From positions 1,798,001 through 1,862,000 of the forward strand of contig NZ_CP041406.1 in NCBI RefSeq assembly GCF_014905135.1: a stretch of 64,000 bases of DNA. The letters are read 5' to 3'. The DNA is from Sulfurimonas paralvinellae. GTDB lineage: Bacteria > Campylobacterota > Campylobacteria > Campylobacterales > Sulfurimonadaceae. The number at the start of each line of letters is the position of its first letter. Position 1 is the stretch's first letter. The notes under the pieces are model-generated. The model made no database searches and was not told the DNA's origin. It saw only the letters and a program-made list of their open reading frames with translations. Positions 39,562 to 53,158 of the stretch are shown one piece after another. Position numbers and translations under genes: made by a program.

Positions 39562-41220
39562 TTGTCCTCTAATTTTTGGGAAATATTACTAGTTGATGAC
39601 GATGAAAAATTTCATCAGATAGTAGCAGAAAGTTTTGATGAAATTTTCATAAACGATAAAAAAGTAAAAATGCTTCATGCCAGAAATGCACAAGAAGCAA
39701 AAAAAATTTTACAACAATATTCTGATATTGCCATTGCCTTTATAGATATTGCCATGCATACACCTGATGCCGGCTTAGACTTAGTAAACTACATAAGACA
39801 GACACTTTACAATAGTTCTATGCGAATTGTAATCATTAACAGTGATGATTCACCTGTACCCGCAAGTGATATTATAGCCCATTATGATATCAACGATTAT
39901 AAAGACAGCCGATGCATAAAATCCCAAAGACTTTTTACAACTATTCGTACGGCTATTAAACAATACCAACAATTTAAAGACCTCAAAGACAAAAGAGATG
40001 AAATCTATAAAAAAATGACGACGAATGAAATCACCTCATTACCCAATAGAATGAAACTCAGCGAAAATCTTGACACTATCGGAGGGAAATCTCTTATCCT
40101 TATCAATATTGATGATTTTAGCCTTATTAATAATCACAACGGTTTTGAATTTGGTGATGAAGTTTTAAAATCTTTTGCCAAATTTCTCATTGAAAAATAT
40201 TCCAGATATGCTGAAGTCTATCATTTAGAAGCAGATAAATTTGCTTTATTATGCCTGCAATCAGACACGAGTCATACGCAAGAAGAGAGTATATCAATAA
40301 TTAAAGAAGATATATACAAACATGAATTTAATGTAAAAGATGTAAAATTTCACTTAACCGCAACACTTGGAGCTGTTTTAGATGAGCGAGGCAATATCAT
40401 CCAAAAAGCTGAATTTGCATTAAAAGAAGCAAGGCTTTATGGTAAAAACAATGCAAAGAAATATAGTGATGACTTACAGATAGTAAGAACAATTCACTCA
40501 AATTCCATATGGACAGGTCGTATTCGAGAAGCTATTGCACACAACAACATACTAGCATACTTTCAACCCATACAAAATGCTAAAAATGGAAAAATAGAAA
40601 AATATGAAACCCTTGTCCGCTTAAAATATGAAAATGAAATATACTCTCCTTTTCATTTTTTAGATGCCGCGCTGTATAGCGGACAAATGTTTGAAATATT
40701 CAAAGTAATGTTAAGTGGAGCCTGCCAAAAAGCACAGACAACAGCTTCTGTTCTCAGTATTAATATAAGTGAATATGATTTAAAACATCCTAAATTTCTT
40801 CAAACCATTCATAAAACCATACAATCATATGACATTTCTTCTCAACAGATTGTTTTTGAAATTCTTGAAAATAATAGTATCTCAAGGGATAAAAACATAC
40901 AAAATACACTCAATATCCTCCATCAAGATGGTTTCAACTTAGCTATAGATGATTTTGGAGCTGATTGTTCCAACTTTGCACAACTCAACAACTTACCAAT
41001 CAATTTCATAAAGATAGACGGCCAGTTTATCAAAAATATTATTGAAGATAAAAATTCACAAATCGTGACAAAAACCATACTCGATTATGCTCATCAAAAA
41101 GGTATTCCTGTTGTCGCAGAGTTTGTTTGTTCAAAAGAGATCTATGAGTATGTCAAAGAGATAGGTGTAGATTTTCTACAAGGCTATTATATTTCCGAAC
41201 CTAAACCCGAACTAATCTAA
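39562..41220 (+). CDS. response-regulator-like protein with degenerate GGDEF and EAL-type domains
   Basis: The 552-residue protein starts at TTG 39562 with AAGGA upstream. Domains are a REC-like domain (ILLVDDDEKFHQIV; phospho-acceptor in AFIDIAMHT), a GGDEF domain without the GGDEF motif (LEADKFALL), and an EAL-type domain. In the last, EAL reads ETL (KYETLVRLKYE), but AIDDFGADCSNF and FIKIDGQFI are kept. VAEFVCS replaces the usual VAEGVE. It probably binds cyclic-di-GMP or GTP or signals by contact; phosphodiesterase activity is uncertain. It is the first block inserted between modC and addA. Confidence 0.82.
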   Translation: MSSNFWEILLVDDDEKFHQIVAESFDEIFINDKKVKMLHARNAQEAKKILQQYSDIAIAFIDIAMHTPDAGLDLVNYIRQTLYNSSMRIVIINSDDSPVPASDIIAHYDINDYKDSRCIKSQRLFTTIRTAIKQYQQFKDLKDKRDEIYKKMTTNEITSLPNRMKLSENLDTIGGKSLILINIDDFSLINNHNGFEFGDEVLKSFAKFLIEKYSRYAEVYHLEADKFALLCLQSDTSHTQEESISIIKEDIYKHEFNVKDVKFHLTATLGAVLDERGNIIQKAEFALKEARLYGKNNAKKYSDDLQIVRTIHSNSIWTGRIREAIAHNNILAYFQPIQNAKNGKIEKYETLVRLKYENEIYSPFHFLDAALYSGQMFEIFKVMLSGACQKAQTTASVLSINISEYDLKHPKFLQTIHKTIQSYDISSQQIVFEILENNSISRDKNIQNTLNILHQDGFNLAIDDFGADCSNFAQLNNLPINFIKIDGQFIKNIIEDKNSQIVTKTILDYAHQKGIPVVAEFVCSKEIYEYVKEIGVDFLQGYYISEPKPELI

Positions 41221-41640: not shown

Positions 41641-42630
41641 TTGCAAAGAAAAAGCATATTGAGTGTACTCGGAATCGCGCTGATGTTGAGTGCCTGTGCA
41701 ACTGTACAAAAAAGTGAAGAACATGAGGTGCCAAAAAGCTCTGCTGTTGTTAAGAGTAAGAGCATAGAAGCAAAAGAAGCCAACGCTGGCAAACCGACCG
41801 GAATCAAAAGAAAAGTGGCTATCGCCCGTTTTACAAATGAAACACGCTATGGACAGAGTTTTTTCATTGATAAAGACAACAACCGTATCGGAAAACAGGC
41901 AATGGATATTCTCTCTGCAAAACTGTTCCAGACAGGAAAGTTCATCATGCTTGAACGTGCTGATCTATCAAAGATAGATGATGAACTCAAGATGAAAGAT
42001 CATAAAAAACTTGACAATGCCGCTGATTATATCATTCTGGGTTCCATCACGGAATTTGGACGTAAAGAGGTGAGTGATGTCGGTCTATTCAGCCGTGTTA
42101 AAAAACAGGAAGCCTTTGCCCGTGTGCATATCCGCATCGTCGATGTAAGCACCGGAGAGATCATCTACTCAGACGAAGGTAAAGGAACTGCTTTTAGTGA
42201 AGCAGGAAATGTAATGGGTGTCGGTGACAAAGCGGGATACGATTCACAACTCAACGATAAAGCCATTGATGCAGCCATTTCCGATCTTGCTTCAAATATC
42301 ATCGAACATATGCTTGACAAACCATGGAGAGGCTACATTTTGGATTACCAAGACGGCAATCTCATCATTTCTGGCGGAAAAAGCCAAAACATCAAAGCAG
42401 GCGATAGATTTGATGTTTATGTACAAGGTAAAAAGGTCACAAACCCACAAACACATATGACCATAACCCTTCCGGGCAAAAAACTGGCAACAATAGAAGT
42501 AGTCACAACACTTGGAGACAGACCGGAAAATGAAGTTTCACTGACAAAGATAGTCAGCGGTAATTTAGACAGCTATATAAAATCGAAAGATTTTTCAAAG
42601 CTGTACATTGAAGTAGGAGCATCAAAATGA
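41641..42630 (+). CDS. CsgG/HfaB-like outer-membrane lipoprotein
   Basis: The 329-residue protein starts at TTG 41641 (AAAAGGA upstream) and has a lipoprotein signal with LMLSACAT. The CsgG-type core reads KVAIARFTNETRYGQSF, LFQTGKFIMLERADLSKI, ADYIILGSITEFG and ARVHIRIVDVSTGEIIYSDEG. CsgG proteins form outer-membrane secretion pores or related assemblies. It starts a four-gene lipoprotein operon (ATGA overlap with the next gene). In Neisseria and others this set (CsgG, DUF4810, DUF799) recurs without curli genes, and its role is unsettled. Confidence 0.85.
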   Translation: MQRKSILSVLGIALMLSACATVQKSEEHEVPKSSAVVKSKSIEAKEANAGKPTGIKRKVAIARFTNETRYGQSFFIDKDNNRIGKQAMDILSAKLFQTGKFIMLERADLSKIDDELKMKDHKKLDNAADYIILGSITEFGRKEVSDVGLFSRVKKQEAFARVHIRIVDVSTGEIIYSDEGKGTAFSEAGNVMGVGDKAGYDSQLNDKAIDAAISDLASNIIEHMLDKPWRGYILDYQDGNLIISGGKSQNIKAGDRFDVYVQGKKVTNPQTHMTITLPGKKLATIEVVTTLGDRPENEVSLTKIVSGNLDSYIKSKDFSKLYIEVGASK

Positions 42631-42926
42631 AGTACATCATTGCAATAATAGCGTTTATATCTCTTCTTGGCCTTAGTGGTTGCGGATACAAAGAGGGCGT
42701 ACGTACAGCTGCAGCAAAATCACATCTCTATTTTACAGGCGACACCTCAAATGTTCTTGTATCGATCGATAATTCAGAAAAATTTCCTGTAAAAAGCGGT
42801 ATAGACCATCTCTATAATGTCGCTCCGGGAAAACATTTGGTTCAGGTATACAGAGACGACAAACTCATTGTCAAAATAGAGATCTTCGTAAGTGACGGTG
42901 TATCCAAAGAGATAGAGGTAAGATAA
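42627..42926 (+). CDS. small lipoprotein (99 aa)
   Basis: A lipoprotein signal (FISLLGLSGCGYKEG) is followed by a short beta-rich domain with PEGA-like features (VAPGKHLVQVYRDDKLIVK). It lies between the CsgG-like and DUF4810 genes, overlapping the first by four bases, so it is a fourth component of this outer-membrane lipoprotein set. No enzyme motif is visible. Confidence 0.68.
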   Translation: MKYIIAIIAFISLLGLSGCGYKEGVRTAAAKSHLYFTGDTSNVLVSIDNSEKFPVKSGIDHLYNVAPGKHLVQVYRDDKLIVKIEIFVSDGVSKEIEVR

Positions 42927-42929
42927 TAG

Positions 42930-43316
42930 ATGCGCAAAAACAATCTTATTTTTCCAAGCATACTTTTTGCCGCCTTGTTTATGGCAGGATGCAGCTCACA
43001 TAATCAGGCTCTATACAACTATGGCACATATAGTGAAAGTTACTACAGCGATGTGAAAGATCATACACACGAATCCCAGCTCGCCCTGCAAAAATCTATA
43101 GAAGATGCCATTCAAAATGCTCAGGACAGCACATCAGGAAGAGTAGCACCCGGTCTTTATGCAAATCTCGGTTACATCTACCTCAAAAAGGGACAAAGCA
43201 AACTCGCTGTTGAAAACTTCAAAAAAGAGAAAGTACTCTATCCGGAATCTGCGAAACTCATGGATATGCTCATCAAAAAAGTAGCAATGGCAGAGGAGGA
43301 TAAAAATGAAAAATAG
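42930..43316 (+). CDS. DUF4810-type lipoprotein
   Basis: The 128-residue protein has the lipobox FMAGCSSH and the typical LYNYGTYSESYYSDVKD block. A TPR-like helical tail follows (GLYANLGYIYLKKGQSKLAVENF, seen in parts). The DUF4810 protein regularly accompanies CsgG-like and DUF799 lipoproteins. Its end overlaps the next gene by 11 bases. Confidence 0.82.
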   Translation: MRKNNLIFPSILFAALFMAGCSSHNQALYNYGTYSESYYSDVKDHTHESQLALQKSIEDAIQNAQDSTSGRVAPGLYANLGYIYLKKGQSKLAVENFKKEKVLYPESAKLMDMLIKKVAMAEEDKNEK

Positions 43317-43998
43317 ACTCACACTTTATACTCTGTTCCTGTTTTTAGTGGCTCTGTTAAGCGGTTGTGCAGGCACAACACCGACTACAAAAGGCTCGGC
43401 ATTTCCGAAAATGTATGAAGAGCAGCCTCGCTCTATTCTCATACTGCCGCCAATGAATGAAAGTAGTGACGCAGAAGCGAAGTCTTATTATATGACAACT
43501 GTCGAGGTCCCTTTTGCACAGATGGGTTACTATGTTTTTCCTGTTGAAATGGTCAGTGATATCATGAAACAAGAGGGTGTATATGATACGGAACTTCTCT
43601 ACAATATGCCGCTTGATAAATTTTATGAATACTTTGGTGCCGATGCGGTACTCTTTACCAAGATCAAGCAGTGGAAGGTCTCTTATGCCGTCATAGCATC
43701 ATCACTAACCGTCTCCATCGAAGCTGTGTTAAAATCAACAAAGACAAATCAGGAATTATGGAGATATTATGATACAATCGTTGTCGATCTAAGCGGCGGT
43801 AACAGCGGCGGCGGTATCGGCGGGCTTATAGCCAGTGCTATTGCAACAGCTATCAACACTGCAGCTGCAGACTATGTAACCTATGCAAGAGTGGCAAATT
43901 CCCATATCGTTTTTGCCCTGCCTGCCGGACCTTACAGCCCTCTTTATATGCAGGATCAAAGCATTCAAATTACCGATAAAAGAGCGAAAGAGAAATAA
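43306..43998 (+). CDS. DUF799/GNA1162-type lipoprotein
   Basis: The 230-residue protein has a lipobox (ALLSGCAGT) and the family core SILILPPMNESSDAEAKSYY, TTVEVPFAQMGYYVFPVE, LLYNMPLDKFYEYFGADAVLF and a glycine-rich GGNSGGGIGGLIASAIATAI helix. GNA1162 of Neisseria is surface-located and forms part of an outer-membrane assembly. It is the last gene of the four-gene set; a strong hairpin at 44016-44043 follows. Confidence 0.83.
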   Translation: MKNRLTLYTLFLFLVALLSGCAGTTPTTKGSAFPKMYEEQPRSILILPPMNESSDAEAKSYYMTTVEVPFAQMGYYVFPVEMVSDIMKQEGVYDTELLYNMPLDKFYEYFGADAVLFTKIKQWKVSYAVIASSLTVSIEAVLKSTKTNQELWRYYDTIVVDLSGGNSGGGIGGLIASAIATAINTAAADYVTYARVANSHIVFALPAGPYSPLYMQDQSIQITDKRAKEK

Positions 43999-44117
43999 TC
44001 AAACGCCAACAATCTCTATGCTATCTTTTAGAAGATAGCATAGATACCCTTCAACCTCTGCATTCGTTATATTTCTCACAGCTTCTTTTATCAGGTCTAA
44101 AATTCCTAATGCTGTAG
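43999..44117 (-). pseudogene. addA 3'-end fragment (scar 2)
   Basis: This is nearly identical to addA 48096-48184, starting exactly at the addA stop codon (TCAAAC...). It is joined by an internal deletion to the equivalent of 48340-48370 (TTTATCAGGTCTAAAATTCC). It lies in the same orientation as addA and is followed by a modC fragment. Confidence 0.88.
44016..44043. terminator. 12-bp perfect hairpin (copied addA end hairpin)
   Basis: CTATGCTATCTT (44016-44027) and AAGATAGCATAG (44032-44043) flank a TTAG loop. The same hairpin with one mismatch is at 48113-48140 inside the real addA 3' end. It can serve as a bidirectional terminator for the lipoprotein operon, though no long T run follows. 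Confidence 0.5.
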
Positions 44118-44396: not shown

Positions 44397-45752
44397 TCAG
44401 CTGATCTTTTTTATAATGAAATAGCTATAGTTTTGTTCACTCTCTTTTGGAGTGATATGTCTGTACGCTTCACTCTCAATAAGTTGTAGATTATTTGGCA
44501 ACTCTTGTAAGATTTTTGTATCATCATATGCTTCTATGTCAAGTCCTGCACACTGTATCTCTCCATCCTTTGAAAATGTAGCAATGATAGCAATTGCATT
44601 TGGCTTGATCACTGATGAGAGCACTTCAAAATATTTTTGCCGTTCTTTTTTTGTCAGCAAGAAATGAAAAACTGCTCTGTCATGCCACAAATCAAATTTC
44701 TTTTGACTCTCAAAAGCGAGAATATCTTCACGCATATAAGTAACATGTTCACTTTTCACTCTTTTTTTAACAATATCGAGCGAAGCTTTGGACGTGTCTA
44801 ATAATGTTATATCTTCATATCCAAGTTCCAAAAGCTTATCGACGAGTAGTGAAGCACCACATCCTGCGTCTATAACAGCATCCTCTTTTTTTGCATAGCT
44901 GCTGATAAGTTCAAGAGATTTTTGCGGAGATCTTTGGTGCCACAATACCTGCGTATAATCTTTGTTCTGGAAAATATTTTCCCAATGCTGTTGGCGCTTT
45001 ATCTCTGCCGGTATTTTTGTTGCTTGAAACGTAGCACCCCTTGTCGTTTCTGCTGTTGTGTAATGTGTATGTCCCGTACACTCTACATCTTTAAACCCGG
45101 CTTTTTGCATAAGTTCTATAAGCTCATACTCACGCATAGTTCCAGCAACACAGTTTGCCCAATCCTCTTCACCGAAAGATGAACAGCATGAACTCTCTTG
45201 GACTGCACAACAAGTAGGTTCTGAAATATCTATCATATCTGCAAAATAGATTTTCCCCTCCGGCTTTAAGAGACGATATATCTCTGAAAAAACAGATTCT
45301 TTACATGAAGTAAGGTTGATCGCTCCATTTGAGATAACGACATCAACACTTTCATCCTCCAGCGGCACATTATCAAAACTGCTCTCTAAAATCTCGACAT
45401 TATCAAAACCGACCATCTTCGCATGTTCGGATGCCGCTGCAACCATTTTCGGTGTTATATCAACACCATACACTTTTCCACTCTCTCCTGCATGCAGGCG
45501 AGCAACTAAAACATCAACTCCTGCACCACATCCAAGATCTAATATAGTATCCCCTTCAGATATTATTGCATTTTTAAAAGGATTGCCGACCGCTGCACAG
45601 TACTCCCAAACTTCTGATGGTGTGGCATCTATCCACGCTTGTTTGTACCCATGCGCTTTTGCATTCTCTAAACCTTTATCCCAACCAAAATCTTTTTCGG
45701 GGTTTTGCGCCAACTCTGTATATAGTTCGATTATTTGATTGTTGTCTGCCAT
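44397..45752 (-). CDS. two-domain SAM methyltransferase fusion, arsenite-methyltransferase-like N half
   Basis: The 451-residue protein holds two Rossmann methyltransferase domains. Domain 1 (about 45-245: ILDLGCGAGVDVLVA, DVVISNGAINL, YFADMIDI) is ArsM-like and contains a cysteine-rich segment EPTCCAVQESSCCSSF at about 190-205. Domain 2 (about 265-450: VIDAGCGASLLVDKL, FDLWHDRAVFHFL) resembles small-molecule thiol or tellurite-type methyltransferases. Beside DsbD-like, rhodanese and ArsR genes, a role with arsenic, selenium or reactive sulfur is plausible. The conserved ArsM cysteines are not all visible, so arsenite methylation is not proven. Confidence 0.75.
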   Translation of the reverse strand: MADNNQIIELYTELAQNPEKDFGWDKGLENAKAHGYKQAWIDATPSEVWEYCAAVGNPFKNAIISEGDTILDLGCGAGVDVLVARLHAGESGKVYGVDITPKMVAAASEHAKMVGFDNVEILESSFDNVPLEDESVDVVISNGAINLTSCKESVFSEIYRLLKPEGKIYFADMIDISEPTCCAVQESSCCSSFGEEDWANCVAGTMREYELIELMQKAGFKDVECTGHTHYTTAETTRGATFQATKIPAEIKRQQHWENIFQNKDYTQVLWHQRSPQKSLELISSYAKKEDAVIDAGCGASLLVDKLLELGYEDITLLDTSKASLDIVKKRVKSEHVTYMREDILAFESQKKFDLWHDRAVFHFLLTKKERQKYFEVLSSVIKPNAIAIIATFSKDGEIQCAGLDIEAYDDTKILQELPNNLQLIESEAYRHITPKESEQNYSYFIIKKIS

Positions 45753-45761
45753 TTTCGCTCC

Positions 45762-47045
45762 TTATTCTGCATTCATATCAAGCATATCAAAAAGATTTTG
45801 TGCTGATTGATATCCATAAGCTATTTCATCTTCAAGCACTTTACCATCTGCATCAATGATAACAAAAGCAGGCGGTCCGAAAACTTTAAGACTCTTTTTG
45901 ATTGCATTGGCTTCTGCATCAGATTTATCTGTCATGTCAACCATAAGCGGGATATAACTCTCTCCCAGTATTTTTCTTATTTTTGAGTCTTTGAGTGTTG
46001 TATTTTTCAATTTTTCGCACACCTTGCAATGTTCGGCATGAAAGTAAATAACAATAGGTTTATGCTGAGTCAGTGCTTTAGCTTTCTCTGCATCAAACTC
46101 ATTAAGATTTTTTATCTGTTCAAAAGGAAGGGCTGACTCTTTTTTTACCGATGTTGCAGTTACTGCACCTGTAATCATTCCTTGTTCATTTTTAAGTGGC
46201 AGCAACAGGTCGTTGTTGCCTCGTGCTCCTCCAACAAGTGTGATGATACCCCAGATAAACAATAGCACTGACACTATTTTTTTCAATTTCTGCCAGCCGC
46301 TTGAAACCTCTACACTTACATCTACAGCTCCCATATAAACAGCAATACCTGTGAAATAGATTCCCCATAATAAAAGCGATGGTATAAGTTGTAATTCTGA
46401 AAAGATACTAATAGCAACACCAATGAGAAGTATTCCAAAGAAATGTTTTACACCATCCATCCATGCACCTGCTTTTGGAAGCAGATAGCCGGCACCGACA
46501 CCCATAAACATCAACGGCACACCCATACCAAGAGCAAGCGTAAACATTGTCTCTGCACCTAATAGCGGATTGCTTGTTGCAATAGAAACACTCAAAAACG
46601 AGATAAGCACAGGAGAGACACAAGCTCCTAAAATCAAGGCAGAGACAAGTCCAAGAAAAAAAACTGCAAAGAATTTTCCACCCTTAAGATTGTGTGTACT
46701 GCCTTCAAGTCGTGTCTGCAAAAAAGCAGGCATCTGAATTGTGAAAGCTCCAAACATTCCAAACGCCATGACAACAAAAACGAGACTCATTGTCCCGATT
46801 GCCCATGCATTTTGAAAATAGGACTGCAACTGTTCTCCCGTTGCACCGGCCAATGCACCCATGACGGCATAGGTAACAGCAGTTCCAAGTACATAAGCAA
46901 AAGAGAGCTGAAATGCCTTTGCTTTTGAGATTTTTTCACCTTCACCGGCTATAACACTTGAGAGAATAGGTATCATCGGCAAAACGCAAGGTGTAAAGGT
47001 CAGCAGTATTCCTGCAATAAAAGCGCCGCTTAAAATTGCCAACAT
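45762..47045 (-). CDS. DsbD-like thiol:disulfide transporter (membrane + thioredoxin domains)
   Basis: The 427-residue protein has eight membrane segments with the buried cysteine pair motifs (FTPCVLPMIPI near the start; GACVSPVLISF at about 135). A C-terminal thioredoxin-like domain carries EHCKVCEK (about 340). The N-terminal DsbD-alpha domain is absent. It carries electrons from cytoplasmic thioredoxin to periplasmic proteins, here probably to the neighbouring rhodanese. It lies four bases after the rhodanese gene and nine before the methyltransferase, so the three form one operon. Confidence 0.88.
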   Translation of the reverse strand: MLAILSGAFIAGILLTFTPCVLPMIPILSSVIAGEGEKISKAKAFQLSFAYVLGTAVTYAVMGALAGATGEQLQSYFQNAWAIGTMSLVFVVMAFGMFGAFTIQMPAFLQTRLEGSTHNLKGGKFFAVFFLGLVSALILGACVSPVLISFLSVSIATSNPLLGAETMFTLALGMGVPLMFMGVGAGYLLPKAGAWMDGVKHFFGILLIGVAISIFSELQLIPSLLLWGIYFTGIAVYMGAVDVSVEVSSGWQKLKKIVSVLLFIWGIITLVGGARGNNDLLLPLKNEQGMITGAVTATSVKKESALPFEQIKNLNEFDAEKAKALTQHKPIVIYFHAEHCKVCEKLKNTTLKDSKIRKILGESYIPLMVDMTDKSDAEANAIKKSLKVFGPPAFVIIDADGKVLEDEIAYGYQSAQNLFDMLDMNAE

Positions 47046-47048
47046 TGC

Positions 47049-47531
47049 TTATTTTTCTTTATTAAGTACTACATTCCCAAGACCGGTTTTAACAGGATAC
47101 CCTGCTTTCGCCCATCCTTTAAGCCCGCCTTTAAGTGTTGTTACATGTGTATAACCCATCTCTTTCATAACCTGTGCAGCCAACGCTCCACGCCCGCCTC
47201 TGCGGCAGTATGTCACCACGTATGCATCTTTATCCGGAATAATCTTGTTGATTTTCCATTCTAAATTACCACGTGTGACAGCACGGAAATTCTCTTTGTT
47301 AAAATCATCGAATGGGATGCTTCCCTCTGCATGCTGCTCTGTCTCACGCACATCAAGAACAAAGACATCTTCGCCATCATCGAGCATACTCTTTAACTTT
47401 TGGGGTGTTACCTCACCTACCTCTTTTTTTGCCTGGTTGATCAGATCCATCTTGCTTAAAGACTTCGCCATTACACTGCTTGATGCTACAAGTACTCCTA
47501 CAATTAACAATTTTACTAGAGAATATCTCAT
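47049..47531 (-). CDS. periplasmic rhodanese-like sulfurtransferase
   Basis: The 160-residue protein has a signal peptide (KLLIVGVLVASSSVMAKS) and a rhodanese domain (FVLDVRETEQHAEGSIP). The active-site loop CRRGGRGALAAQ has the catalytic Cys in YCRRGGRG. Exported single-domain rhodaneses move sulfane sulfur or, with the loop Arg/Gly makeup, bind related oxyanions. First gene of a three-gene operon that diverges from arsR. Confidence 0.87.
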   Translation of the reverse strand: MRYSLVKLLIVGVLVASSSVMAKSLSKMDLINQAKKEVGEVTPQKLKSMLDDGEDVFVLDVRETEQHAEGSIPFDDFNKENFRAVTRGNLEWKINKIIPDKDAYVVTYCRRGGRGALAAQVMKEMGYTHVTTLKGGLKGWAKAGYPVKTGLGNVVLNKEK

Positions 47532-47614
47532 TTTTCTATCCTTTTTTTTGATTTTCCATATACTAATGATAAAGTGTAAAATATATATAAAATAAATTTA
47601 TGAATTTAGCAATT

Positions 47615-47630
47615 TAACTAAATAGATTTA
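47615..47630. promoter_or_regulatory. candidate ArsR operator, copy 1
   Basis: TAACTAAATAGATTTA is repeated with two differences at 47675-47690, 60 bp away. Both lie in the 195-bp gap between the divergent rhodanese and arsR genes. Confidence 0.45.
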
Positions 47631-47674
47631 CAAGACTATACTATTATTACTTAATATAATGTTAATTGTCTAAA

Positions 47675-47690
47675 TAACTAAGTAGATTTT
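47675..47690. promoter_or_regulatory. candidate ArsR operator, copy 2, with arsR -10
   Basis: TAACTAAGTAGATTTT lies four bases before TATAAT (47694-47699), a good -10 for arsR, so a bound repressor would cover the promoter. The nested ACTAAGTAG core is partly symmetric, as in many ArsR/SmtB sites. Confidence 0.5.
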
Positions 47691-47726
47691 AGCTATAATT
47701 CCGCATAGACAATAAAAAGGGCTCAT

Positions 47727-48095
47727 ATGTTAAATATGGATGATAAGATCAAGATTTTTAAAGCTTTGGGAAATGAAACAAGATTTAAAATTTTTAAAAA
47801 TGTTTTTACAGGTGGTTATGCCTGTTCTATCGACAAAACACAACCGCAAGATGATATCATAGCCCAAGCGACTTGTGTCACAAGCATAGCAGAGAACTTC
47901 GACTTTGCCCTACCTACCATCTCCCGCCATCTCAAAGAGCTTAAAGATGCAAAGATTATCACTATGGTCAAGAAAAAAAACAAGATCTACATAGAGCCGA
48001 ATATAGAGACAATCAATGAGATAGCAGACTGTTTTGCAACACTTATGAAAGAGTATGATGAACGCATGGGATACCAGTTTGACAATACAAAATAA
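47727..48095 (+). CDS. ArsR/SmtB-family winged-helix regulator
   Basis: The 122-residue protein has the ArsR fold: IFKALGNETRFKIFKNVF, recognition helix FALPTISRHLKELKDA and wing IITMVKKKNKIYIEPN. An insert in the N-terminal part carries Cys33 (YACSID) and a second Cys (ATCVTS) that could bind a thiol-reactive ligand such as arsenite or polysulfide. It is divergent from the rhodanese-DsbD-methyltransferase operon, with two repeated operator-like sequences between. The sequence after its stop is the convergent addA end. Confidence 0.88.
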   Translation: MLNMDDKIKIFKALGNETRFKIFKNVFTGGYACSIDKTQPQDDIIAQATCVTSIAENFDFALPTISRHLKELKDAKIITMVKKKNKIYIEPNIETINEIADCFATLMKEYDERMGYQFDNTK

Positions 48096-50813
48096 TCAAA
48101 CTGCAACAATCTCTATGCTGTCTTCTAAAAGATAGCATAGATACCCTTCAACCTCTGCATTCGTTATATTTCTCACAGCTTCTTTATAATAGTTAACCTG
48201 CTTACGATGTTTATCTTGAAAGTTCATAGCACTTTTATAGTCTATAACAATGAAAGAGCCATCTTCTTTTTGTACCAGCAGATCAAGATAGCGCAGATTG
48301 TTTTTATAACGCAGCGCTTTTTCTTTATAGTATCTGCCCTCTTTTATCAGGTTTAAAAATTCCGAATGCTGCAGCAGTCTCTCTACCCGCATGCAGATAT
48401 CATCTATCTCTTTAGGTGTCAAGATAAAGCCGTATTTGTTAAGCAGCATATTTTTGGCATCTGCGATTGCATCGAGAGAGAATGCCGGTATCATCTCGAG
48501 CATATAGTGGAGTGCCAGACCAAAGTTAATGGCTTGCAGATCCTCTTCGCCTTCATTTTCCAATGCCAAGATCTCGCTCTGTGTTCCATAGTAAAGATTT
48601 TCATAAGGCAGTTTTTTTGTTTTGCGTTCATGGCGTTGTTCCTGCTGCTCGACTTTCAAACTGCCAAAACTGCCGACTTCCAGATCCAGTAGCTCAAAAC
48701 TTGAGTGTTCACTCTTTTTAATGACAAATAGATGCTCTTTAGCACGCGTAAAAGCGACATACAGAGCATTGAGGCTGTCCTCACGCACTAGGGCTTTCTC
48801 TTTTGCCAAAGCATTTGCATAGGCAGTGTCAATAGTATCACGGCCTGCAGTTCGCAGATAGACATTCTGCAATATAATGCCGTCATATTCATAGATGATA
48901 CTATCACGTGAGGCAGGTGCACGTTTAAGTCTGTCCATGACAATGACATGCTTATACTCAAGCCCTTTTGATTTATGCACAGTAAGTACACGCACACCGC
49001 TCAAGTCAGATGCCGCGGCACTCACATCAAGACGTTCATACTCGAAGATAAGCGCGTCGATATCTTCATACTTCGCAACCGCATCCAAAAAGCGTATAAT
49101 ATGAAAATCATCGCTGAAAAGTCCATACCTCTCAATGCACTGCTTGATGATATCAAAGAGTTTGATGCGTGTGACATCCAGCTTTGGCAGAGGCATGCTC
49201 TTTTGATCTATAAGAGCAAAGAAGTTGTGTCTGTAGATATCTTCCTCAAAGTAAAGATATTTCAAATACTCAAGGATTGCTTTGACGCTGCGTTGGTTGA
49301 TCAGTTTTGTCGTTGTCTCGGTAACGACCTCTATCGCTCTGTTTTGCAACAGATTCTTGATCTCTTCACCGTCACCGTTCGTTGCACAAAGAATGGCAAT
49401 ATCATTGAGAGCTGCCCCCAAAGATATCAAACGCTCAACCTGCGTGAGCGTCGCTTCTAATAACTCATCATTTTCTATTACTTCCACATAACCGCCATCC
49501 GCTTCTTTGCGTGAGAGCTGTGGCGAGTAATTCGTTATTTTCTCTTCAAAGACTCTGTTGACAAACTCTATGACCTCTCTTTGCGATCGGTAGTTTGTCA
49601 ACAGTTTTTTTACCTCTGTGTGATTCTCACGTGCAACTTCACCAAAGAGCGCCGAAACCCCGCCGCGAAATCTGTAGATAGACTGCTTCACATCGCCCAC
49701 GAAGAAGAAACTGCCCGACTCAAAGACTCCCTGACCGGAGACTATCTCTGAGATCAGCGGTTTTAATATCTTGTACTGCATTATGCTGGTATCTTGAAAC
49801 TCATCGAGCAGCATATGCTCTATTGTTGCATCAAGACGGAAGTAAAGAAATTCACTGTCATCTAAACGATGTAAGATAGTGTAAACAAGCTGTGTAACAT
49901 CGGAAAAACCGAGTTCACTCTCCTCTTGATAGAGCGCTTTTTTTGCTTTTTTATAGATACTTGTAAGCTCACGCAGACCATAAAAGAAATTCTGCTCTTT
50001 GGCTCTGTTATAAGCACGCAGAGCATCTTGAATAGTATGAAGTGCACTGTCCATCTCCGGTGTATAACACTTTTTGAAGACCCAGTACTCAAGCGTCTCT
50101 TTCCCAATCCAGCTTTTTGAGCGCAGTACATCAAAACTATCTGCTTCCACCGCTTTTAGCAGTGTCGCCGAAGCACCCTTGCAGTTCTTGACAATATTTT
50201 GCAGCTGCGTGAGCGCTTGAAGCGCCTGATCTTCATACTCTTTCAATGAAGATTTTTGAAAGCTGATACTGCCGAACTCCTCTTCTTTTTCATAGAACTC
50301 ATTGAGCAGTTGAAAAATATCGCTGACGCGCTTGTTTGACTCCAGTGCAAGTGCCACAAGCAGCTCTTTCTTTCCTGCAACACTCACCTCTTTTAAAAAT
50401 CGTGAGAGCAGTTTTATCTCATGCTGTGAGGCATAAGTTGTAAAGTCAGGCATCAATCCAACATACAAAGAGAACTTTCGCAGTATCTGCGTAAAAAAAC
50501 TGTCTATCGTCATGATCTTTGTATGCGCATTTAAAAATGATGTCAAGACCTTGGCTCTTTGCGTGAGGATCTTTTCTTTACTCATACCACTCTCTTTGAT
50601 GATCTCATCAAGTTCACCACGCGTCTCAAGATGCTCGAGTGTCTCGACGATTCGCTCACTCATTTCTGATGCGGCTTTGTTGGTAAATGTAAGGGCAAGT
50701 ATCTTCGAGGCATCTGCGCCTTGAAAGAGCAGTGTAAGATAGCGAACAACCAGCATAAAGGTCTTACCGCTGCCCGCACTCGCTTCATAGGCAAGATTTT
50801 TCACAAATGCCAT
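48096..50813 (-). CDS. addA: AddA-type helicase-nuclease subunit (RecB-like)
   Basis: The protein is about 905 residues, starting at ATG 50813 (TGATG overlap with the addB stop). Motif I reads YEASAGSGKTFMLV; motifs Ia (LALTFTNKAASEM), II (LLDEFQDTS), III-V and VI (LYVAFTRAKEHLF) follow. The C-terminal RecB-type nuclease has GSFIVIDYKSA. It is shorter than Bacillus AddA (about 1230), as usual in Campylobacterota. With AddB it processes double-strand breaks for recombination. Its 3' end is duplicated as fragments at 41280 and 43999. Confidence 0.93.
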   Translation of the reverse strand: MAFVKNLAYEASAGSGKTFMLVVRYLTLLFQGADASKILALTFTNKAASEMSERIVETLEHLETRGELDEIIKESGMSKEKILTQRAKVLTSFLNAHTKIMTIDSFFTQILRKFSLYVGLMPDFTTYASQHEIKLLSRFLKEVSVAGKKELLVALALESNKRVSDIFQLLNEFYEKEEEFGSISFQKSSLKEYEDQALQALTQLQNIVKNCKGASATLLKAVEADSFDVLRSKSWIGKETLEYWVFKKCYTPEMDSALHTIQDALRAYNRAKEQNFFYGLRELTSIYKKAKKALYQEESELGFSDVTQLVYTILHRLDDSEFLYFRLDATIEHMLLDEFQDTSIMQYKILKPLISEIVSGQGVFESGSFFFVGDVKQSIYRFRGGVSALFGEVARENHTEVKKLLTNYRSQREVIEFVNRVFEEKITNYSPQLSRKEADGGYVEVIENDELLEATLTQVERLISLGAALNDIAILCATNGDGEEIKNLLQNRAIEVVTETTTKLINQRSVKAILEYLKYLYFEEDIYRHNFFALIDQKSMPLPKLDVTRIKLFDIIKQCIERYGLFSDDFHIIRFLDAVAKYEDIDALIFEYERLDVSAAASDLSGVRVLTVHKSKGLEYKHVIVMDRLKRAPASRDSIIYEYDGIILQNVYLRTAGRDTIDTAYANALAKEKALVREDSLNALYVAFTRAKEHLFVIKKSEHSSFELLDLEVGSFGSLKVEQQEQRHERKTKKLPYENLYYGTQSEILALENEGEEDLQAINFGLALHYMLEMIPAFSLDAIADAKNMLLNKYGFILTPKEIDDICMRVERLLQHSEFLNLIKEGRYYKEKALRYKNNLRYLDLLVQKEDGSFIVIDYKSAMNFQDKHRKQVNYYKEAVRNITNAEVEGYLCYLLEDSIEIVAV
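48113..48140. terminator. hairpin within the addA 3' end
   Basis: CTATGCTGTCTT pairs with AAGATAGCATAG around CTAA, with one mismatch. It lies inside the last codons of addA and 17 bases after the arsR stop, so it may terminate arsR transcripts. The copy at 44016-44043 has a perfect stem. Confidence 0.45.
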
Positions 50814-53158
50814 CACGCTCTCCCGCACATCAGTGCAAATTCACAATACTGACACATTTTTGCATCTTCCGTCTTCTCAAAATTCACCTCTTCGACCTGC
50901 AGCAGATCCGCTATGTGTGACCTTAGTATCTCCAGCTTTTGCTCAAGGAAAAGTTCTTCAACCACTCTGCCCTCTTTAAGATCATAAAAGGCACAGCTGT
51001 TCACATTCCCAAGTCCACCCGCAAGTATATGGTAGAACTCAAGTTGAAAATCTGTTGCTTCTGTAAAGTTATTTTTATTGTAAAGCGTGAAAGAGCCTGT
51101 TTTATAATCAAGCACATCCACAAGATTCTCTTTTTTATCCACTCTGTCTATCTGCCCCTGCAGTGTCATGCCTGCATAGGGTGCCTGAAAACTTTTCTCT
51201 ACACTGTGAACACGCCAGCCTTCTTTAAAGCGTTTCACCTCATTGAGACAAAAACGCTCCAGCCTTTTTTTCTGTATTGCCATAAGATATTTCTCAAGCT
51301 CACTTTTGCCGGTTACGTTTTCAAGCTCTCTTTCAAGGTCATGCTGCAGCTCTCGTACATCATCATAGTGATCTTTTTTGGCATACAGCTGCTCAAGCGC
51401 TTTATGAACATCCGTTCCTATTGCATGTTCCTGCGGCATATCACGCGGAATCTCATGGGCGTTGATATGCTTCACATAATGGTAATAATACTTTCGCTTA
51501 CAGCTCAGATATGTTTTAAGCCGTGAATTTGAGAGTGCAATATTCTTAAAACTGTACGGCTCTATTATCTCAGGCTCATAGAGAGCTTTTTTTGAACTCC
51601 TTGCAAAAAGTATCTCTGCATAATTGATCTCATCATAGCTGTTCTTTGTTGTAATGCCCAGCTCTTTTAAAAAACGCGAAGGATGATTTTGCTCCGAAGA
51701 GACATAGGAGATAGCCACCTCTTTGGAGCGCGACATTAACATCTCGTAGTAATGTTTTTGCAGATTTTCCCGCTCCTGCATTGTCGGCAAGCCTGCCATC
51801 TCACGCAGCTTTGTATTTAAGAACATATCTTTATTGCTGCGTTTTGGAACATTGTCATCATCAAAATCAATAATGATAACAGCATCAAAGGCAATACTCC
51901 GTGTCTCCAAGACACCCATAACCGTCACCTTGCCGCCACGGACATCATCAATGCTGCGTGAGCCTAAACGCTGCATAAAAAGAGATAAAACAGAACGTAC
52001 GTTCATATGCTGCAAATATGGCAGAATCTTTACAAAACTGTGCAGTTCTTCATAAAATATCTTTGCCTCAGTTTTACTTGCTATGCTCTCTTGAACCTTT
52101 TGCATCAGCACCGTAAAATCTACGTCCACAATATTTTTTCTATAGACATCATAAAAGAGTTGATAGTATGTATCACCATAATGATTCAGCCTGCTGCTGT
52201 TTTCACAGGTAGCATCATCAAGATATAAAAACGCAGCATGGAGATTTTTATATATCTGACTCTCTTTAAAGCTCGCCCCCATTGCAAAGTTAAAGTTTGA
52301 TTTCTCATCAAAGCTCTGTATGCTTTTTGCAGTATGCTCATTTGGCAAAATCACAGCAATCTTTTCAGGGTCGTAACCTTTAGAGACAAATTCATAGAGC
52401 TTTTGTTTGATGAACGCTACCTGCAAGATCCCTTCACTAAAACTCTCACAGCTTATCTCTGAGTTTTTTGAAAGTGATTCTTTTTGAAGAACTTCTATTT
52501 CGTTCAGATGAAGCAGGTAGTGATGTCCCGGCATAATTTCAAAGCCAAGTTCACGCAGTTTATTCTGCATTTTCATATTAAATCGGGTTGCAGTGAAGCG
52601 AATCTTAATCTCACTATACAGTGTTGCTTTTTGTAAAAGTTCAAGTTCAAAATTTGTCAGATAACCCTCTAAAACTATTTCGACAGATCTGTAGTTTTTA
52701 AGATATGGGGCATTGAAAGTGTAGTGCTTTGACAGAAAGATCCGATCAAGCAGTTTTTTCTCATCACACAATTTTTCATAACGTCTGTAGAGTTCCTGCA
52801 GGATTGTTATGTGCTCTTCATATTCACCATAGAGATCGGCACTACTGAGGTTTTCTATCTCAAATAGCTCTGCACTGAGCTCTTCAAAAAATTTAAAGAT
52901 ATACGAGCTGTTTTTTGTAAAAGTAAAGAAGTTCCTCTCGATTTGCAGGTTGGAAAAGTTTTGAAAGTCTGAAGCTTCTAACAAAAGAAGTGTTCGAGTG
53001 TCTTCATCCAAAAATGTATACCCTTCAACAAGAGTAAGTTTTGCAATGAAGTCACTCATCATAATGAAGTTTGGCAGAAACAGTGTATCTAATTCTACTG
53101 CTAATTGCTTATGCCTAATGGCACGAGCAGAGGGAAGAACTATGAGCTCATCATCCAT
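50813..53158 (-). CDS. addB: AddB-type subunit of the helicase-nuclease
   Basis: The 781-residue protein lacks a working N-terminal Walker A. It has a helicase-like body (VAVILPNEHTAKS-type region written AVILPNEHTAKSI, VIIIDFDDDNVP, ENLQKHYYEMLMSRSKEVAI). A C-terminal RecB-family nuclease domain (QGQIDRVDKKENLVDVLDYK) and a cysteine cluster (CQYCEFALMCGR, with an earlier CKRKYYYHY) suggest an iron-sulfur staple, as in AddB. It overlaps addA by TGATG. Confidence 0.9.
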   Translation of the reverse strand: MDDELIVLPSARAIRHKQLAVELDTLFLPNFIMMSDFIAKLTLVEGYTFLDEDTRTLLLLEASDFQNFSNLQIERNFFTFTKNSSYIFKFFEELSAELFEIENLSSADLYGEYEEHITILQELYRRYEKLCDEKKLLDRIFLSKHYTFNAPYLKNYRSVEIVLEGYLTNFELELLQKATLYSEIKIRFTATRFNMKMQNKLRELGFEIMPGHHYLLHLNEIEVLQKESLSKNSEISCESFSEGILQVAFIKQKLYEFVSKGYDPEKIAVILPNEHTAKSIQSFDEKSNFNFAMGASFKESQIYKNLHAAFLYLDDATCENSSRLNHYGDTYYQLFYDVYRKNIVDVDFTVLMQKVQESIASKTEAKIFYEELHSFVKILPYLQHMNVRSVLSLFMQRLGSRSIDDVRGGKVTVMGVLETRSIAFDAVIIIDFDDDNVPKRSNKDMFLNTKLREMAGLPTMQERENLQKHYYEMLMSRSKEVAISYVSSEQNHPSRFLKELGITTKNSYDEINYAEILFARSSKKALYEPEIIEPYSFKNIALSNSRLKTYLSCKRKYYYHYVKHINAHEIPRDMPQEHAIGTDVHKALEQLYAKKDHYDDVRELQHDLERELENVTGKSELEKYLMAIQKKRLERFCLNEVKRFKEGWRVHSVEKSFQAPYAGMTLQGQIDRVDKKENLVDVLDYKTGSFTLYNKNNFTEATDFQLEFYHILAGGLGNVNSCAFYDLKEGRVVEELFLEQKLEILRSHIADLLQVEEVNFEKTEDAKMCQYCEFALMCGRA

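Follow-up and report, generated by a model that had tools for sequence, protein, structure and literature searches.

A two-methyltransferase fusion beside a divergent three-cysteine ArsR-family repressor in a candidate thiophile-stress operon of Sulfurimonas paralvinellae

The CmArsM arsenite methyltransferase binds arsenic through Cys174 and Cys224, and ArsRM of Brevundimonas M20, an ArsR/methyltransferase fusion, couples an ArsR-type regulator with arsenite methylation (PMC10190100). A three-selenoprotein Tso operon is named in a review (PMC13188914). Sulfane-sulfur repressors of the SqrR/BigR type have two conserved cysteines, and these ArsR-family regulators, with SoxR and sHdrR, are reported near rhodanese and other sulfur genes (PMC12423496). 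MddA, MddH, MddM1, and MddM2 are hydrogen sulfide/methanethiol (H2S/MeSH) S-methyltransferases, of which MddM1 (210 aa) and MddM2 (204 aa) depend on S-adenosylmethionine (SAM) (PMC12904073). Sulfurimonas paralvinellae carries a locus with partial likeness to these systems in a window of 64,000 nucleotides (the whole stretch analyzed; positions 1,798,001–1,862,000 of contig 1, genome size 2.08 Mb). By open reading frame (ORF) reading it is a three-gene minus-strand operon that encodes, in order, a rhodanese, a DsbD-like protein, and a fusion of two methyltransferases, with spacers of 3 nt (rhodanese/DsbD-like) and 9 nt (DsbD-like/fusion) and a divergent ArsR gene (Table 1). Both the fusion and the repressor depart from the usual form of their known kinds. 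We tentatively favor reading the cassette as an inserted, locally regulated thiophile-stress operon, most likely directed at trivalent arsenic or thioarsenic in a sulfidic habitat. A literature search of titles and abstract openings, with most subscription papers outside its coverage, returned no paper on the fusion or the operon, and the available excerpt of PMC10045233 has nothing on this locus.

Pfam Methyltransf_31 matches the fusion in two stretches. Domain 1 (about residues 1–246) is ArsM-like, with a CC..CC insertion at residues 181–190 and a CxxG cysteine at Cys201, and domain 2 (about residues 247–451) has the conserved motif WHDRAVFHFL. An AlphaFold2 model built from five sequences (mean pLDDT 80.1, pTM 0.59) contains two seven-stranded methyltransferase domains, with the Cys-rich stretch at residues 179–201 not resolved (pLDDT <50). 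A preliminary description of the locus took this stretch for a Cys-Cys-rich linker between the domains; alignments place it inside domain 1, ahead of the CxxG motif, and the linker reading was dropped. Full-length fusions were found in at least 10 of 397 genomes of the class and, with two named contigs (L008 and L009), 12 were compared; searches for the fusion and its domains scored the best four candidates per genome, and absences are soft. The closest named relatives of the fusion locus are in Sulfurimonas (73% identity across the fusion) and Sulfuricurvum (53%). A plasmid-borne fusion was considered and rejected, as none of 122 matching plasmid records covers 80% of the query in one place.

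Domain 1 shares the fold, the CxxG cysteine, and SAM motifs with ArsM (CrArsM/CmArsM; PRK11873) and with the selenoprotein fusions NF041537 and NF041536. It differs in having Val at the equivalent of Cys72, which we take to be one of the three conserved ArsM cysteines, and Gly at that of Cys174, in its additional Cys-Cys insertion, and in its fusion to a second methyltransferase. Its nearest named NCBIfam families are arsenite-methyltransferase selenoproteins and arsenite methyltransferase, with every score under cut-off (179 bits to PRK11873, NF008823, against a curated 263). Among the structure matches listed, the domain 1 model aligns with CrArsM (5evj) at Z 22.8, rmsd 3.0, 195 aligned residues, and 32% identity; this Z equals that of unrelated methyltransferases, and the identity is the highest among 50 rows listed. 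The class I methyltransferase fold is like that of ArsM but common to many other methyltransferases, and a common fold shows no function. A table of 40 domain 1 homologs was compiled from the loci at hand, after one duplicate of the window was dropped from 41. Fourteen rows have Cys at all three ArsM positions, and 26 have Val first, Gly (one Ala) second, and Cys third. The window has Val55, Gly143, and Cys201, and V/G/C is found in all 12 fusions, as are Cys52 and the Cys-Cys pair. As aligned, domain 1 keeps one of the three ArsM cysteines and gains others. Proteins of about 1,000 aa that join a radical SAM domain, a three-Cys ArsM domain, and DUF5714 occur at L036:106–3090 and in L034, L035, L037, and L039–L042, the Pfam composition being taken from L036.

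In the gammaproteobacterial class (that of G397) the two domains are separate genes. Among 369 genomes of that class, domain 1 (≥200 bits) is found in nine; eight of these also have domain 2, compared with 60 of the other 360. The unfused genes are adjacent or overlapping in G615 and G498, which supports a shared pathway of both domains, as well as the coupling proposed in the preliminary description. Domain 1 may feed domain 2. Elsewhere in the class of G397, domain 1 lies beside or near another small methyltransferase-like gene of the WWHALWP type (L228:5562–6908 and L229:4533–6508), again a methyltransferase pair, with Pfam domains taken from L228. A domain 2 tree of 61 rows was built by a quick method with support by SH-aLRT only. 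All 12 fusions group in one clade of 25 rows (SH-aLRT 99), with six unfused domain 2 genes whose genomes also encode domain 1 and seven other single genes. The fusion label needs five changes on this tree, at least three of them by starred branches, and the fusion may have had one origin with losses or several origins. A single domain 2 gene in G331 (L054:7256–7963) opens, by eye, with about 20 residues of domain 1, and another in G216 (L058:7272–8018) may, also by eye, retain six. Both are apparent losses of domain 1. Taken as a remnant, the L054 opening shows such a loss and that domain 2 can persist without domain 1. Within a group of L009, L050, L051, and L058 (SH-aLRT 100), the fusion stands under an ArsR of type A (L009), beside one of type B (L050), and in an ars operon (L051).

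The ArsR protein matches Pfam HTH_5 at 25.6 bits (cut-off 22). Exactly three cysteines are present in 32 of 32 ArsR proteins of this kind, the window included, at positions 33, 50, and 102 or at offset equivalents in three; starts were set at conserved ML residues where found, and L173 (<60 bp upstream) was left out. Type A was defined as ≥175 bits, a line set after seeing the scores. Cys33 falls within an extra loop of 15–18 residues before helix 3 that is missing in eight other aligned ArsR proteins. The classic As(III) site of ArsR is ELCVCDL. Cys50 corresponds to the first of the two CVCDL cysteines; the second is Thr, Ser, or Gly in three rows aligned, and the window protein lacks the CxC at the start of helix 3. 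The SqrR/BigR cysteine pair has one member in helix 2 and the other in helix 5. The helix 2 Cys of a BigR-like Sphingomonas regulator (L180) is absent from this subtype, none of the 32 proteins has the pair, and an SqrR/BigR-type sensor was rejected on this pattern. As read from the alignments, the subtype, with three invariant cysteines and an extra loop, fits neither classic ArsR nor SqrR/BigR. The best match to the ArsR model, among matches listed, is the As(III)-responsive 6j05 (Z 12.8, rmsd 1.4, 87 aligned). An unassigned ArsR-like protein from Rhodococcus (2oqg, Z 12.5) ties with it; SqrR 6o8m gave Z 8.7 and BigR 3pqj Z 7.9. The modeled fold hints at closeness to As(III)-responsive ArsR.

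Two repeated operator-like sites had been proposed. The 15-mer TAACTAARTAGATTT is indeed repeated, with exactly two perfect matches genome-wide, both at this locus; the element conserved in relatives is instead an inverted repeat, TTTAGC-N6-GCTAAA. It is found at ≥10 of 12 positions in 24 of 32 upstream regions (170 bp upstream of ArsR), with chance judged by simple letter shuffles. The eight regions that fall short are two of 11 of type A (L044 and L160) and six of 21 of type B. L044 has a perfect site farther up, in a longer intergenic stretch, and perfect sites in G128 and G332 stop about 20 bp short of the fusion gene itself. The count in the genome of S. paralvinellae is not above control (one match against three control matches) and was rejected as proof, and a general promoter scan here gave 18 where shuffles gave 13.5 (sd 3.5), which is no clear excess. 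The element is called a putative operator because it is conserved at the same place in relatives. ArsR control, as previously proposed, gains from the recurrence of both the divergent position and this element.

Gene neighborhoods were read up to five genes from the anchors and named by a panel of 16 queries only. Nine of the 12 fusions have an ArsR of this kind nearby, and nine have a rhodanese, alone or within a MerT-like/rhodanese protein. Cytoplasmic DsrE is near six, DsbD near four, and the MerT-like/rhodanese protein near three; two fusions lack all of these partners. The MerT-like/rhodanese protein combines a MerT-like membrane part with a rhodanese domain and is encoded immediately before the fusion gene (L044:8343–9221, L045:6571–7587, and L046:8017–9015); Pfam MerT scores are 33.1 bits in L044 and 26.5 in L045 (cut-off 32.9), and L046 was assigned by similarity only. 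In L051 (G337) the fusion lies about 50 bp behind ArsB, divergent from ArsR, an ArsC-like arsenate-reductase-like protein, and ArsP. In G216, two genes separate the domain 2 gene from ArsB within one locus. Type A ArsR is found in six of 10 fusion genomes and three of 387 others of the class, and any ArsR of this kind in seven and 20, respectively. A further 20 ArsR loci have no full fusion; rhodanese and/or DsrE is found in 17, domain 2 alone in L158, and neither in L159 and L173, which begins at a contig end. By annotation, plasmid pSULKU02 of Sulfuricurvum kujiense bears the same ArsR/sulfur-transfer module. A plasmid search with the window ArsR gave one close match and two weak ones, and no homolog was found in 369 genomes of the class of G397 at E ≤1e-10, in a search without a positive control. 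The rhodanese/DsbD set is not specific to the fusion: the module exists without the fusion, which is linked with it in certain lineages and with an ars operon in one other. A further genome of the class has a three-Cys ArsM gene next to a gene for a rhodanese (L062:6155–7691).

These partners bring in the main rival, sulfide or sulfane-sulfur detoxification, in which ArsR would sense polysulfide or persulfide, the rhodanese and DsbD would treat periplasmic sulfane sulfur, and the methyltransferases would S-methylate sulfide, methanethiol, or other thiols. We consider it somewhat unlikely. The partners in relatives are cytoplasmic and periplasmic DsrE, rhodanese, DsbD, thioredoxin-like proteins, and OprD, and the same sulfur-transfer partners are annotated on pSULKU02. 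Bacteria do have cytoplasmic H2S/MeSH methyltransferases of about 210 aa (MddM1; PMC12904073), the size of domain 2, a likeness by size and description only. Plasmid homologs of domain 2, from other phyla, are mostly annotated as class I SAM-dependent methyltransferases with no substrate named. Some lie near TauE/CydAB/DsbD/DsbG; thioredoxin/CcdA; MerT/GDCCVxC/DsrE/ArsR/YeeE; metallo-beta-lactamase (MBL)/rhodanese/SulP; rhodanese/ArsR; SulP/ChrA; and MBL/TrxA/DsrE/OprD. However, those placed in the tree fall outside the fusion-holding clade, which weakened their contexts as proof for domain 2 of the window. Fifteen such contexts, read without control windows, were taken from 52 matching records; one is unannotated, five have no sulfur or thiol gene, one has metal genes with VKOR, and one only a GDCCVxC protein. 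In 14 gammaproteobacterial domain 2 stretches, the query panel detected a single rhodanese (L234) and a single DsbD (L243). One fusion sits behind ArsB, and the repressor, with three cysteines, is without the helix 2 member of the SqrR/BigR pair; its extra loop likewise sets it apart from SqrR, BigR, SoxR, and sHdrR.

Handling of selenium, tellurium, antimony, or mercury by the same parts is very unlikely in our estimate. In its favor are the closeness of domain 1 to selenoprotein ArsM fusions, its nearest families, and the MerT-like/rhodanese proteins ahead of the fusion in L044, L045, and L046, but the MerT matches are marginal. The theme of rhodanese, DsbD, and ArsR-type regulator resembles the Tso operon, judged from NCBIfam model names, and these three proteins match the TsoB/TsoR models weakly. 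TsoB is a rhodanese/DsbD fusion, whereas here the genes are separate and have Cys, and scores far below cut-off (162 of 805 bits for TsoB and 26.8 of 115 bits for TsoR) led us to reject Tso membership. Unlike ArsRM, the locus has a separate regulator, and the fusion partner is another methyltransferase.

The cassette is flanked by a 96-nt direct repeat with 95% identity between copies. The right copy is the end of gene 48096–50828, read as an AddA/RecB-like helicase, a homolog of which is found in 41 of 41 same-genus genomes. Thirty same-genus loci, own included, were read up to 1.5 kb beyond this gene, with some contigs ending sooner. None of the 29 others has ArsR, rhodanese, DsbD, or the fusion beside it within the stretch read. 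The cassette looks inserted because the repeat brackets it and it is absent at these 29 loci. In three of the 29, the homolog neighbors that of window gene 39562–41220, a putative GGDEF/EAL gene, which in the window lies at a distance of about 7 kb, on the far side of the cassette and a lipoprotein cluster. That lipoprotein cluster (41641–43998; CsgG, DUF4810, and GNA1162-like by Pfam) thus also lies between genes that are neighbors in the three relatives. Base composition of the cassette does not contrast with its surroundings, and a distant origin is not supported.

For the preferred reading, a response to trivalent arsenic or thioarsenic, the analysis shows the arrangement of the genes and their domains, a conserved operator, the patterns of cysteines, a genetic link between the two domains, and signs of insertion; the mechanism that follows is a model. 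The three-Cys ArsR, bound at the inverted-repeat operator, would block its own promoter and that of the operon until a soft thiol-binding ligand on Cys33, Cys50, and Cys102 releases it. DsbD would carry electrons outward from the cytoplasm to the periplasm, where the rhodanese may move or remove sulfane sulfur, for example by taking sulfur off thioarsenic. Cytoplasmic domain 1 would methylate a metalloid held by Cys201 with the added Cys52 and Cys-Cys pair, and domain 2 may add a second methyl group, either to that product or to its thiol ligand. The ars operon case, kinship to ArsM, and the repressor fold favor a trivalent metalloid; the partner genes favor sulfur; and sulfidic arsenic chemistry would join the two. 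Arsenite alters the expression of DsrE/F-like genes in Thioalkalivibrio, and one of two strains shows high induction of a rhodanese operon (PMC6620896). By analogy these data fit the arsenic reading, but they concern other genes. The interpretation in the preliminary description is partly supported: rhodanese, DsrE, DsbD, and MerT-like partners and one ars operon agree with its theme of a thiophilic element or sulfane sulfur, and arsenic, selenium, tellurium, and sulfane sulfur are not separated.

Several observations weigh against an arsenic function. Two of the three ArsM cysteines are absent from domain 1 in all 12 fusions, and the ars operon link comes from one group of relatives. A paralogous ArsR, type B, drives a rhodanese/DsrE/DsbD module with a similar operator, and the query panel found no arsenic gene in the stretches read. 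ArsB and ArsP are encoded elsewhere in the genome, far from the locus, and arsenic is thus served elsewhere too. The co-occurrence figures ignore shared ancestry; with three syntenic gammaproteobacterial genomes collapsed, p = 1.7e-4. Around two of the 12 fusions (L048 and L049), the stretch read contains neither ArsR nor DsbD nor rhodanese. Fusions without these partners, together with no inducer response, had been named beforehand as grounds for refutation; these two cases supply the first half of that condition. Such solitary fusions, the presence of DsbD with only four of 12, and the inserted look of the cassette would also suit a locus without joint function, where an unrelated methyltransferase gene and a sulfur-relay module came to share an operon by chance after insertion. 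This is decidedly unlikely, given that ArsR and rhodanese accompany nine of 12 fusions in varied arrangements and that operator sites recur in relatives.

Table 1. Features of the cassette and its flanking repeats (window coordinates)
Feature	Coordinates	Strand	Basis or remark
Two-methyltransferase fusion, 451 aa	44397..45752	-	ORF, Pfam, NCBIfam, AlphaFold2, alignments
DsbD-like protein, beta membrane domain and gamma thioredoxin domain (CKVC), without alpha	45762..47045	-	ORF, Pfam
Rhodanese, active-site Cys in CRRGGRG	47049..47531	-	ORF, Pfam; motif read in sequence
ArsR-family repressor type A, 122 aa, Cys33/Cys50/Cys102	47727..48095	+	ORF, Pfam, alignments, structure model
Operator-like inverted repeat TTTAGC-N6-(G/A)CTAAA	47605..47622		11/12 positions in window copy
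Direct repeat copy 1, TAACTAAATAGATTT	47615..47629	+	Sequence, genome count
Direct repeat copy 2, TAACTAAGTAGATTT, with TATAAT (47694–47699) directly downstream	47675..47689	+	Sequence, genome count
Left copy of 96-nt direct repeat, relic of 3′ end of gene 48096–50828	43993..44088		Sequence comparison
Right copy of 96-nt direct repeat, 3′ end of gene 48096–50828; 95% identical	48090..48185		4,097 bp from left copy

The four reading frames are complete with no internal stop; selenocysteine codons (in-frame UGA) and selenocysteine insertion elements beyond the ORFs were not searched for. The parts named in the preliminary description, namely a rhodanese, an alpha-less DsbD, a two-methyltransferase fusion, and a divergent ArsR, are all present by ORFs and Pfam. 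The rhodanese scores 60 bits (cut-off 22.2) with its active-site Cys present, and a signal-like N terminus suggests that it is periplasmic. The DsbD-like protein matches DsbD_TM (253 bits) and Thioredoxin_2. Complete DsbD has alpha, beta, and gamma domains; DsbD_N (alpha) was not found in the window protein by the same Pfam library that detects it in the relative L009.

In its widest form the proposal is a two-step soft-element methyltransferase in one chain, with a rebuilt thiol site (Cys52, Cys-Cys, and Cys201) and a product handed from domain 1 to domain 2, under a new three-Cys ArsR subtype responsive to thioarsenic. Paralogous regulators with similar operators would then tie periplasmic sulfur transfer and metalloid methylation into one arsenic-sulfur response in Campylobacterota. 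We regard this extended version as unlikely. Sulfidic waters are expected to contain thioarsenic. Should the arsenic-sulfur reading hold, the locus would provide genes and a regulator for thioarsenic handling and an ArsM-like enzyme with a different set of cysteines, and the conserved operator and unfused gene pairs make the idea directly testable.

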